Assembly (NCBI GenBank): GCA_022711465.1
Contig: JAKLEZ010000001.1
Span: forward strand, 186,001 to 250,000
Reading direction: 5' to 3'
Origin: Planctomycetota bacterium
Lineage (GTDB): Bacteria > Planctomycetota > Phycisphaerae > UBA1845 > PWPN01
Length of the DNA: 64,000 nucleotides
Position 1 is the stretch's first letter. Each line of letters begins with the position of its first letter. Position numbers and translations under genes: made by a program. The notes below the pieces were generated by a model, which ran no database searches, had not been told where the DNA came from, and saw only the letters and a program-made list of their open reading frames with translations. Below are positions 39,387 to 47,898 of this stretch, one piece after another.

Positions 39387-39851
39387 CTATAAGCCGGTTT
39401 CCTTGCCCCTGGAGATGCACTGATCGGCGAGAGGATCCTCGTGGGCACGGCCTGGCGGTCTCTTGGGTACTCGCCACGAGTACGCGAAGCTGCCTCAGCC
39501 ATACCCGACCTTTCGCAGGACCCGCCTTGGAGGCGGTGTGACGCGCGCATCGGCCCTGCCCGCTGAGAGGTCCACCGCGTGGTCGTATGTCCCAAGTGCG
39601 TATCGATCCACGGTCCGGCCCGCCGGGTAGTAATGCCCGGCGCCCGGCCGGGAGCCCTCATCGCGTCCGCTGACGTGACCGTCGGACCAGATGACCCGAC
39701 AGGCCGTGCCGTGGACACGAACCTGAAGCTCGCGATCGAAAGCCGGACAGACCGCCAAGCCCTTGGAGCTGAGGTCACTGAAGATCAACTCGACACCCGG
39801 ATCGTCCGCTATGCCTTCCAGCCTGAAGACAACCGGACCGGAGGACTCCAC
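39387..39851 (-). CDS. Candidate selenoprotein B (in-frame UGA, YG-U-GS...YSWRVPK)
   Basis: I read this as 154 residues from GTG 39851, which has GGGAGG seven bases upstream, to TAG at 39387-39389, with the TGA at 39495-39497 read as Sec119. Conventional calling stops at the TGA and leaves 118 residues. Upstream residues (VVFRLEGIADDPGVELIFSD and on) look coding and beta-rich, with GC-rich third positions. Around the TGA the peptide is GYG-U-GSFAYSWRVPK, nearly the same as in the gene at 42523-43950. A hairpin with loop UGG follows. After YSWRVPK the 28-residue tail shows no similarity to the other copy. It could be a genuine short selenoprotein or a decayed copy. No domain recognised. Confidence 0.55.
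39467..39497 (-). promoter_or_regulatory. Candidate bacterial SECIS element, copy B
   Basis: The UGA is at 39495-39497. A perfect 7-bp stem, GTACTCG/CGAGTAC, with loop UGG (39474-39476) starts 11 bases later. There are 18 bases between UGA and loop. The distance, the short loop and the G at loop position two fit the known bacterial SECIS rules. Confidence 0.65.
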
Positions 39852-39858
39852 CCCTGGG

Positions 39859-39864
39859 CCTCCC
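39859..39864 (-). promoter_or_regulatory. Shine-Dalgarno site fixing the start of candidate selenoprotein B
   Basis: GGGAGG lies seven bases before GTG 39851. It is the only well-placed ribosome site in this frame, which opens at a stop codon at 39927-39929, and it supports translation of a gene that is otherwise easy to dismiss. Confidence 0.6.
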
Positions 39865-40060
39865 GATCGTCCTTCAGTCGCGCGAAGGCTGATCGACTTG
39901 CATGCTATCCTCGAACCAGAGGGGCGTCAATGAACTACCGCTCCGCACGTCGCTCACCCATCCGGCAGGAGTATGGGGAGCGGCAGGCGAACCGATTCTG
40001 GACGATCGCGGACATCACCTCTTCGCCTGCCTGCATGCGCCACCCGCGTGTGCCGCGATC

Positions 40061-45665: not shown

Positions 45666-45674
45666 GAGAACCAG

Positions 45675-47591
45675 ATGGAGCGGATCAACATCACGCTGGG
45701 CACCGCCGGCCACATCGACCACGGCAAGACCGCGCTGGTCAAGAACCTGACCGGCTGCGACACGGATCGCCTGAAAGAGGAGAAAGAACGGGGCATGTCC
45801 ATCGAACTGGGCTTTGCGCCCTGCACCGTAGCCGGCACCCAGGTCGGTATCGTGGACGTCCCTGGACATGAGAACTTCATCAAGACCATGGTCGCCGGAG
45901 CCAGCGGAATCGACGGCGTGATCTTCGTCATCGCCGCCGACGACGGGATCATGCCCCAGACCCGCGAGCACTTCGACATTCTCACCCTGCTGGGTACTCA
46001 GGCGGGCGTAGTGGCCTTGACCAAGCTCGACCGCGTGCCGGCCGAGCGGGCGGAAAGGCTCCGGGCCGAGATCCGCGATTTCCTGGGCGGCACCTTCCTG
46101 GCGAACGCCCCCGTCGTCGGCGTATCCAACCTCAACGGCGACGGCTTCGGCGAGCTGGTCACCGCCCTTCAGGATCTGGTGGCCGGTCTCCGCCGCAAGC
46201 CCACCGACGGCGTGTTCCGAATGCCGATCGAGCGGACCTTCTCCATCAAGGGCTTTGGCACCGTGGTCAGCGGCATCCCGGTTTCAGGCACCGCCCGGAT
46301 CGGCGACGAAGTCACCCTGCTTCCCCAAGGGCTGAGCGGGCGGATCAGCGCCATCCAGGTCTACCAGCACACCGGTGACGCCGCCGTGGCCGGCCAGTGC
46401 GTCGCCCTCAACGTGCGGCAGTGGGACCACCACGCTATTGACCGGGGCTGCACCGTGGCCGTCCCCGGTTTCTTCGAGGCCCAGCAATGGTTCTTCTGTC
46501 GGCTGCGACTTCTGCCGCACGAGCGCGCCCCGCTCAAGAACGCATCCCAGGTCAAGTTGCACACCGGAACCTCCGAGGTCATGGCCACCGTCTACCTTCT
46601 GGATTCCGAGCGGATGAAAGCCGGGGAACACGGGCTTGTCCAAGTCCGGTCGTCTCGGCCGCTGGTGGCCGCTCCCGGCGACCGGTTCATCCTCCGGTCA
46701 TTGTCGCCGGTTCAGACGATCGGCGGCGGCACGATCATTGAGGGCGTCTCCCAACGAGCCAGGCGAGGCCGGCCGGAGCTCCTGCAGGACCTGGCCGAAC
46801 GCGCTCAGGCGGTCGGCGACGAGAATCGCTTTGTTGAATACTGCATCAGACGAGCCACCGATCATTCAGCCACGGAGGCTGAGCTTGCCCGCCGAGCCAA
46901 GGTGCCACTTTTCCGGCTGCAGGCCATCCTCGCCGATCTCGCGAAAGGGGGGAGCGTTCTCAGGCTGACCTCCGGGCGATACGCACATTGCCACACGACC
47001 GCCGAATTGAGCCGGCGGCTGGCGAGCCTGCTCGATGACTTTCACCGGCGTGCACCCGAACGCCCGGGGCCCGATGCCGATGAGCTGCACGGGCTGACCG
47101 GATGGTCCAGGGAGCTGTTCAAGGATATGGTCGAGCTGTCTCTCGCCGCCGGCACTCTCGTCCGACGCAACCAGAGCCTGGCTCTGGCCGGCCACCGCGA
47201 ACAGTTCACCGACGATCAGCGGCGACTCATCGACAAGATCGAGACGCTGTTCCTCGAACGTCTCTTCAGCCCCCCCGAGTCCGAGGAACTGGCGAGGCTC
47301 ACCGGCGCGGCCATCGACCAGGTGGCGCCGGCCATCAGGATTCTGCTGCAGCAGAACCGGCTCACCCGCGTCGGCCCGGACATGATCTTCCATCCACGGG
47401 CCGTGGAAAAGGCCCGCCAGATTCTGGTGGATTTCATCCACGACGAGGGGCGTCTGGAAAGCGTCAGGTTCAAGTACTTGCTGGATACGACCCGCAAGTA
47501 CGCTCTCCCGCTCCTGGACTATTTTGACCGCACCGGGCTCACCCGGCGGGTGAACAACACACGCTATCTTCGAGCCGGAGTGAACGGCTGA
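45675..47591 (+). CDS. selB: Selenocysteine-specific translation elongation factor
   Basis: The protein has 638 residues. SelB carries Sec-tRNA to UGA codons by binding the SECIS hairpin. The GTPase domain has GTAGHIDHGKTALVKNLTG (G1), ERGMSIELGFA (G2), VDVPGHENFIK (G3) and TKLD (G4). Two beta-barrel domains follow (FSIKGFGTVVSGIPVSG). The C-terminal 250 residues are the winged-helix domains that bind SECIS RNA (last ones FSPPESEELARLTGAAID and FKYLLDTTRKYALPLLDYFD). Intact throughout. It sits between selA and a small gene that itself carries an in-frame TGA with a SECIS-like hairpin. Confidence 0.96.
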   Translation: MERINITLGTAGHIDHGKTALVKNLTGCDTDRLKEEKERGMSIELGFAPCTVAGTQVGIVDVPGHENFIKTMVAGASGIDGVIFVIAADDGIMPQTREHFDILTLLGTQAGVVALTKLDRVPAERAERLRAEIRDFLGGTFLANAPVVGVSNLNGDGFGELVTALQDLVAGLRRKPTDGVFRMPIERTFSIKGFGTVVSGIPVSGTARIGDEVTLLPQGLSGRISAIQVYQHTGDAAVAGQCVALNVRQWDHHAIDRGCTVAVPGFFEAQQWFFCRLRLLPHERAPLKNASQVKLHTGTSEVMATVYLLDSERMKAGEHGLVQVRSSRPLVAAPGDRFILRSLSPVQTIGGGTIIEGVSQRARRGRPELLQDLAERAQAVGDENRFVEYCIRRATDHSATEAELARRAKVPLFRLQAILADLAKGGSVLRLTSGRYAHCHTTAELSRRLASLLDDFHRRAPERPGPDADELHGLTGWSRELFKDMVELSLAAGTLVRRNQSLALAGHREQFTDDQRRLIDKIETLFLERLFSPPESEELARLTGAAIDQVAPAIRILLQQNRLTRVGPDMIFHPRAVEKARQILVDFIHDEGRLESVRFKYLLDTTRKYALPLLDYFDRTGLTRRVNNTRYLRAGVNG

Positions 47592-47625
47592 GAAGGCGTG
47601 GAGCAGATTGGAGTGACACGAAGCC

Positions 47626-47898
47626 ATGAAAGCTCGATTCGGCAAGAGGGCAATCGTCTTCTCGTGCATCGGCGTCGTCGCGTTGTTCGCCCAGCATTTC
47701 CTCAAGCCTGGCTGAGGTGACCCACGCGGCGTCCTTGGAGGATGCCTCACCATCGTCACCCTTCCGATTGCGCTGATCCTCGGGACACTGGGACTCGCCA
47801 GGGACCTGGACAAGTGGCCGGCAATCCTGGCGATTGCCCTGACCGCGGCGGGAATCGTCGGTCTGGCACTGCTTGGCCCCTTGTCCGCGTGCTTCTGA
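47626..47898 (+). CDS. Candidate selenoprotein C: small membrane protein with Sec30
   Basis: Reading TGA 47713-47715 as Sec gives one uninterrupted 90-residue frame from ATG 47626 to TGA 47896-47898, 34 bases after selB. The sequence starts MKARFGKRAIVFSCIGVV, reaches FLKPG-U-GDPRGVLGGC and then runs LTIVTLPIALILGTLGLA and ILAIALTAAGIVGLALLG. This gives a basic N-terminus, one hydrophobic segment before the Sec and two after it, with Cys40 ten residues from the Sec. The composition is normal on both sides of the TGA. Without recoding, only a 29-residue peptide would be made and the two later helices would be pointless. No known family recognised. The ribosome site is weak, so coupling to selB is possible. 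Confidence 0.72.
47713..47746 (+). promoter_or_regulatory. Candidate bacterial SECIS element, copy C
   Basis: After UGA 47713-47715, 20 bases lead to the loop UGG (47736-47738). The loop is closed by an 8-bp stem, GGCGTCCT/AGGATGCC, with one G-U pair. The stem sequence differs wholly from copies A and B, but the loop and distance are the same. Confidence 0.72.

Follow-up and report, generated by a model that had tools for sequence, protein, structure and literature searches.

Predicted selenoprotein families Fam1 and Fam2 beside selA and selB in a Planctomycetota bacterium

Are the in-frame UGA codons located beside the selenocysteine (Sec) genes selA and selB of a Planctomycetota bacterium read as Sec, or do they end short genes? 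The question is raised by a stretch of 64,000 nucleotides (GenBank assembly GCA_022711465.1, contig JAKLEZ010000001.1, positions 186,001 to 250,000 of the forward strand; hereafter the window, numbered from its first letter), in which a first-pass annotation made from the sequence alone had reported intact selA and selB genes and three frames continuing past a TGA, each in the context GGC TGA GGY and each followed by a hairpin with a UGG loop. The sequence agrees with this description: the context is GGC TGA GGT in two of the frames, here called Fam1 and Fam2, and GGC TGA GGC in the third, at 39.5 kb, and the UGG loop begins 21, 20 and 18 nt past the UGA, respectively. Comparison of sequences leads us to hold, with high confidence, that the UGAs of Fam1 and Fam2 would be read as Sec by the cell's own SelA, SelB, SelD and tRNA-Sec, and that the third frame is a decaying duplicate.

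The bacterial Sec system is complete in this genome, with each of its four genes present. Both selA (L-seryl-tRNA(Sec) selenium transferase; 44256..45665, plus strand; PF03841) and selB (Sec-specific elongation factor with C-terminal winged helices; 45675..47591, plus strand; SelB-wing_2 and wing_3) are intact, scoring above the curated cut-offs of TIGR00474 (531 bits, cut-off 267.9) and TIGR00475 (338 bits, cut-off 242.25). Neither selD nor tRNA-Sec lies within the 64-kb window, as had been noted for selD; the absence of both from the genome had been named as grounds for dismissing the idea, and both are present on another contig, about 0.5 kb from each other: selD with 375 bits, and a single copy of tRNA-Sec above the Rfam cut-off (67.9 bits), also found by ARAGORN. 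Formate dehydrogenase alpha, the sole classical client family searched in this genome, gave weak partial matches and nothing above the cut-off, which fits the earlier suggestion that the new genes may be the main clients. PF07596, a domain common in planctomycetes, occurs in this genome and is absent from all 14 control genomes.

Fam1 (42523..43956 including the stop, minus strand) encodes a predicted exported multi-domain beta-sandwich protein (AlphaFold2 predicted local distance difference test, pLDDT, 89.5) of 477 residues when read through the UGA, which is at residue 432 (predicted Sec codon 42661..42663, minus strand; motif YG-U-GGTC-QYSWRVP). Homologues carry TGA at the same site. Fam1 was found in eight of 101 genomes (this one and 100 relatives), and each of the 13 C-terminal matches carries a single TGA, always at this site, within the motif YG-U-GxxC-x-YSWRVP. 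The profile made from this first set matched 33 of 392 genomes of the phylum, and a broader profile (51 sequences) matched 135 of the 392 genomes, belonging to 103 of 267 genera. Among the 150 matches listed for the broader search (more exist), 135 extend across the Sec site, and a single TGA is present in 126 of them, two TGAs in three and none in six; the codon context was read for each of the 129 TGA-bearing rows, and in all of them the TGA sits in the Sec motif. These listed matches place Fam1 with TGA at the site in 82 of the 392 genomes, with up to seven matches per genome. The 15 listed rows that stop short of the site include two (G336, G417) with a TGA just beyond the match and six with a different C-terminus and no TGA. 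Three members have a pair of neighbouring in-frame UGAs, UU (L193, G296:C47; L194, G423:C29; L195, G487:C1), and are candidate vicinal Sec-Sec proteins. A second intact Fam1 paralogue is encoded in the same genome as the window (L113, G000:C45:226606-227025, minus strand; 562 residues from the first ATG).

Cysteine homologues at the Fam1 Sec site exist and are rare, so that the lack of any homologue with Cys or UGA, which the first-pass annotation would have counted against the idea, is not what was found. Three of the six site-spanning listed rows without TGA have Cys at or beside the site (G296:C17, GGCCGGGY; G279, GSCGEGF; G488, SQCCGNY), and the search did not disfavour such forms, since its profile carried Cys at the Sec column. 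In the genome of one of them (G488, 99% completeness) there is no tRNA-Sec match better than 7.2e-7. P0033, one of 41 database homologues of the CUGGGF subfamily (Cys just before Sec), continues through the site with Cys: FGGC-C-GGGFSAYTGKVP compared to FPGC-U-GGGFNEYSGRVP.

Overall, purifying selection acts on the Fam1 frame beyond the UGA: eight close pairs, pooled, have 44 synonymous differences in 279.5 sites (proportion pS 0.157) and 40 non-synonymous differences in 875.5 sites (pN 0.046; pN/pS about 0.29). Individual members have known domains that start only after the UGA: Laminin_G_3 at residues 735-881 (UGA at 389), ankyrin repeats at residues 515-646 (UGA at 463) and, with numbering from an internal ATG, Exo_endo_phos at residues 108-359 (UGA at 43). 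In L123, L129, L133 and L204, the Sec domain is followed past the UGA by ankyrin, laminin-G, tetratricopeptide repeat (TPR) or exo/endonuclease-phosphatase domains. The longest frame past the UGA stays open for 564 codons, which for this single frame has a chance probability of about 1e-9. One Fam1 gene (G275:C7) also has a TAA, which is located after the domain.

The hairpins downstream of both UGAs resemble the Sec insertion sequence (SECIS), and their stems co-vary: GTACTCG-TGG-CGAGTAC in Fam1 (42630..42646, minus strand) and GGCGTCCT-TGG-AGGATGCC in Fam2 (47728..47746, plus strand). For the 29 distinct sequences of Fam1 whose loop lies 21 nt from the UGA, 97.0% of the stem cells are paired compared to 90.8% after shuffling, with a covariation score of 0.213 compared to 0.085 (0 of 500 shuffles); the values for 11 distinct Fam2 sequences are 97.4% compared to 83.6%, and 0.590 compared to 0.288 (0 of 500 shuffles). 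The Fam1 of the sister species, identical to that of the window, and members with other spacings or motifs were excluded from the former analysis, and G131 and G226 (other or less clear spacing) from the latter. A change from Tyr to Leu in the 5' arm of Fam1 goes with a change from Val to Glu in the 3' arm, and the stem is kept (GTACTCG/CGAGTAC compared to GCTCTCG/CGAGAGC). The bacterial SECIS (bSECIS) model, in the available text of PMC13188914, has a loop of 3-9 nt with G in the first two positions, a stem of 4-16 bp, a distance of 16-37 nt from the UGA and a minimum free energy (MFE) of -7.5 or lower; the window hairpins agree with it, both in Fam2 (8 bp, UGG, 20 nt, MFE -17.8 kcal/mol, z-score -2.44) and in Fam1 (7 bp, UGG, 21 nt, -14.0), where the agreement in energy is not clean because -14.0 belongs to a competing fold. 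The window stems are smooth, unlike those of the CU, UU and related Fam1 subfamilies, which have one bulged base on the 3' side of the hairpin (L230, L239, L241, L251, L263, L195 and others). Searching the whole genome with the Fam1-hairpin model returned the two Fam1 copies, the relic at 39.5 kb and nothing else; other types of client would be missed, because the model was built from Fam1. One exact match to the pattern in viral contigs was rejected as chance, its frame being broken by stops and located inside another gene.

Fam2 (47626..47898, plus strand) starts 35 nt past the end of selB and encodes a small protein of 90 residues through the UGA, which is at residue 30 (predicted Sec codon 47713..47715, plus strand; motif KPG-U-GDPRG); homologues have TGA at the same site (alignments A2 and A7). 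Its hydrophobic stretches, judged by eye, suggest that it is seemingly membrane-bound. Fam2 was found in six of the 101 genomes, this one included, with one TGA in all six; over the 392 genomes nine were matched (six with TGA, G418 with Tyr, and two chance-like, G256 and G340), and a broader profile matched four of 216 genomes. The Fam2 UGA lies at most 300 nt from selB in nine of the 12 genomes with located sites, eight times downstream and once upstream (G377). The Tyr form (L138, G418:C104:3046-3312, minus strand) has tRNA-Sec as its neighbour, and its genome possesses Sec machinery. A second small frame near Fam2 in G004 (L101:8255-8299, minus strand, G004:C28), whose TGA follows a lipobox-like TGGC and which has the same hairpin with a UGG loop, is possibly a lipoprotein relative of Fam2.

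Linkage to the decoding genes is repeated in other genomes. At least one of selA, selB, selD and tRNA-Sec was present on 20 of 53 stretches bearing Fam1 or Fam2, and in 18 of 31 genomes (stretches of at most 20 kb each, and 64 kb for the window; eight were left out, having been fetched for Sec genes or having no TGA, and genomes first found by the broader 392-genome Fam1 search are outside the count). We estimate, taking about three Sec loci per 5-Mb genome, that roughly 1% of stretches would show this by chance. In G275, Fam1 is, by eye, directly upstream of a selD-like frame; no Sec gene was found within the 20 kb surrounding the L113 paralogue. Co-occurrence of Fam1 and tRNA-Sec discriminates little, because 275 of the 392 genomes exceed the tRNA-Sec cut-off. 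The proposal that this cell clusters its decoding machinery with new selenoprotein families is supported for Fam1 and Fam2, with their conserved UGA, covarying hairpin and repeated linkage to Sec genes, and is not supported for the 39.5-kb frame, a non-conserved relic of Fam1.

A control for hairpins and open frames asked for an open frame on both sides of the stop codon, a stem of at least 6 pairs and a SECIS-like loop 18-24 nt downstream, in 61 sources (60 stretches, mostly picked for holding Fam1 or Fam2, plus the window). It was passed by 104 of 7554 TGA, 7 of 1757 TAA and 6 of 2405 TAG codons. The control alone proves little, and the TGA excess is mostly Fam1 and Fam2 themselves, because a loose motif classes 56 of the 104 TGAs as Fam1- or Fam2-like and the sources were mostly chosen for these families; spurious TGAs passing the test are also present in the window. 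It is conservation, not this control, that lifts the Fam1 and Fam2 frames above chance.

The N-termini of Fam1 are signal-peptide-like (42 of 44 pass a crude hydropathy test), and the model of the Sec domain (pLDDT 93.8) consists of strands and only two 4-residue helices, without the beta-alpha-beta core and flanking helices of the thioredoxin fold. The Pfam MG2 domain (PF01835) matched Fam1 at 13.1 bits, below its gathering cut-off of 32.8; nothing in Pfam exceeded its cut-off for the window Fam1 or Fam2, the best solved structure found by sequence had an E-value of 0.026, and a fold search with the full-length Fam1 model gave low template modelling (TM) scores and no useful match. SelB would bind the hairpin and bring Sec-tRNA to the UGA; Fam1 would be exported and display its Sec, often followed by a Cys four residues on (UxxxC) and, in some subfamilies, next to a Cys (CU) or to another Sec (UU), on a loop of an immunoglobulin (Ig)/MG2-like beta-sandwich, where it may form an extracytoplasmic redox centre. 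Fam2 may act as a small partner in the membrane and share a transcript with selB.

Several observations weigh against Sec at these sites. Three of the six non-TGA Fam1 rows (G335, G111, G150) have neither Sec nor Cys, the second Cys is missing in many Fam1 members, and the pair G335/G390 has pN higher than pS past the UGA (2 synonymous and 10 non-synonymous differences). The Fam2 homologue of G418 has Tyr at the Sec site (PGYG), and no Cys form of Fam2 was found in the searches of the phylum genomes, no database protein search having been made for it. Sec-gene linkage is lacking in 33 of the 53 stretches, and 15 of the 82 genomes having Fam1 with TGA gave no tRNA-Sec match at E<1e-10; the genomes of the set are mostly fragmented. 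Thermodynamic stability is weak, with a folding-energy z-score below -2 in one of eight hairpins, and covariation was used as the SECIS evidence for this reason; a competing fold is the minimum-energy structure in two of the eight (the window Fam1 and L117). Among 65 further Fam1 sites, the stem reaches 6 or more contiguous pairs in 37 and falls short of this in 28; 20 of these 28 were folded, together with two sites of the CU, UU or related type, and all 22 showed a hairpin in the same place, broken once by a bulge or a mismatch, at energies of -7.6 to -14.7 kcal/mol (given without shuffle comparison).

These points have to be set against what the rival explanations would require. If the UGAs were ordinary stops, the frames beyond them would be chance and the hairpins would be terminators or regulatory elements. 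Database proteins do end there: compared on the protein records, 55 of 56 Fam1 homologues end at the UGA position, including all 15 of the window Fam1 (one being its own record), whose last residues are the YG that precedes the site, and 40 of the 41 of the CUGGGF subfamily, which end one residue before it; besides, 45-60 open codons arise by chance in this G+C-rich window with probabilities of 0.33 and 0.23. We nevertheless find this explanation highly improbable, as similarity at the protein level, known domains and purifying selection all extend past the UGA, up to the 564 open codons mentioned above, the stop at the Fam1 site is TGA in 129 of the 129 listed site-spanning rows having one, and the stem arms co-vary despite the cost in amino acids (YSWRV compared to LSWRE versions). 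A lineage that has reassigned UGA, or decodes it with a different tRNA (as Trp, for instance), would also keep the frame open under a code with TGA as a residue. This code was rejected and seems to us barely credible: TGA terminates genes here too (selB and Fam1 itself), the recoded TGAs carry a hairpin, three of the six sense-codon Fam1 homologues have Cys at or beside the site and none clearly Trp, and the full Sec machinery is present and linked.

With Sec at the Fam1 and Fam2 UGAs as the preferred reading, it may still be asked whether the 39.5-kb frame (39387..39926, minus strand; TGA 39495-39497, hairpin 39467-39483) is a third working selenoprotein. Its TGA and hairpin are intact (R1 match of 41.1 bits), and the part at 39651-39863 (L028) resembles Fam1 residues 130-200. 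However, the segment is missing from the sister species (G001), in which both flanks align at 88-92% identity, and for this reason it was rejected as a live gene; the N-terminus is truncated, the Cys is missing and similarity is lost shortly past YSWRVPK and the hairpin. A working gene is very unlikely, and the frame is read as a decaying partial copy of Fam1. The other alternative accepts the insertion of Sec and concerns its role: the Fam1 Sec might be mainly a ligand of soft metals (mercury, copper) or metalloids instead of a redox centre. CU, CC and UU pairs occur in Fam1, as in the CU-motif carried by some metal-linked selenoproteins of PMC13188914 (Table 1), and there are Fam1 members without any second Cys; against this, the UxxxC of many members would be consistent with a selenenylsulfide pair. 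We consider a mainly metal-binding role rather unlikely, and keep it as a tentative alternative to the redox centre.

The neighbourhood of the relic and Fam1 includes other genes on the minus strand: three tandem genes of the 2-hydroxyacyl-CoA dehydratase D-like type (HGD-D; 34785-38352), that at 37147-38352 being a double-cubane-cluster reductase by NF040772 (418 bits); an S-adenosylmethionine (SAM)-dependent methyltransferase (PF08241; 38421-39233), between these and the relic; and, between the relic and Fam1, a frame of up to 776 residues (40061-42391) with 92% DNA identity in the sister species and no Pfam or NCBIfam match.

The decoding machinery is already known; its predicted clients Fam1 and Fam2 appear to be new, and no report of either was found in the open-licence literature of PubMed Central. 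On balance we lean towards a wider reading in which Fam1 would be a phylum-wide, near-exclusively Sec-containing superfamily of exported proteins, bearing Sec (UxxxC, CU or UU) on an Ig-like beta-sandwich, and a main reason why Planctomycetota keep the Sec machinery. Under this reading the family would have been overlooked because database entries stop at the UGA and Cys homologues are nearly absent: deep-Sep, in the available text of PMC12013277, drops candidates without Cys homologues, and therefore finders of this type would likely lose most of Fam1. This exposes a blind spot of finders requiring Cys homologues, which would likely lose families of this kind. If true, an exported non-thioredoxin Sec family would widen the ideas on Sec outside the cytoplasm, and would give a concrete reason for these bacteria to retain the Sec trait without formate dehydrogenase; the linkage to selA, selB and selD offers a direct experimental handle.

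Compared with known systems, Fam1 and Fam2 share with the bacterial SelB/bSECIS selenoproteins, as presented in the available text of PMC13188914, the UGA, the small-loop, G-bearing stem-loop 16-37 nt downstream and the SelA, SelB, SelD and tRNA-Sec machinery. Unlike the families of that 2026 inventory, they fit no NCBIfam model (nothing over the cut-off for three Fam1 and three Fam2 proteins), and they were not recognised among the 119 families of its Table 1. The Planctomycete strains P1 and P2 belong to the same phylum and have full sets of Sec genes, with an unusual operon-like arrangement of the Sec-insertion genes in P2; the clients named in the available text of PMC4807772, formate dehydrogenase and FmdB selenoproteins, differ from Fam1 and Fam2. 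Fam1 shares with the selenoproteins of the thioredoxin (Trx), peroxiredoxin (Prx), glutaredoxin (Grx) and DsbA types a Sec near a Cys, likely a redox motif, and differs from the UxxC of the thioredoxin fold in having UxxxC, CU or UU on a predicted all-beta sandwich, for which the MG2 domains of alpha-2-macroglobulin and other Ig-like beta-sandwich domains may be among the closest known.

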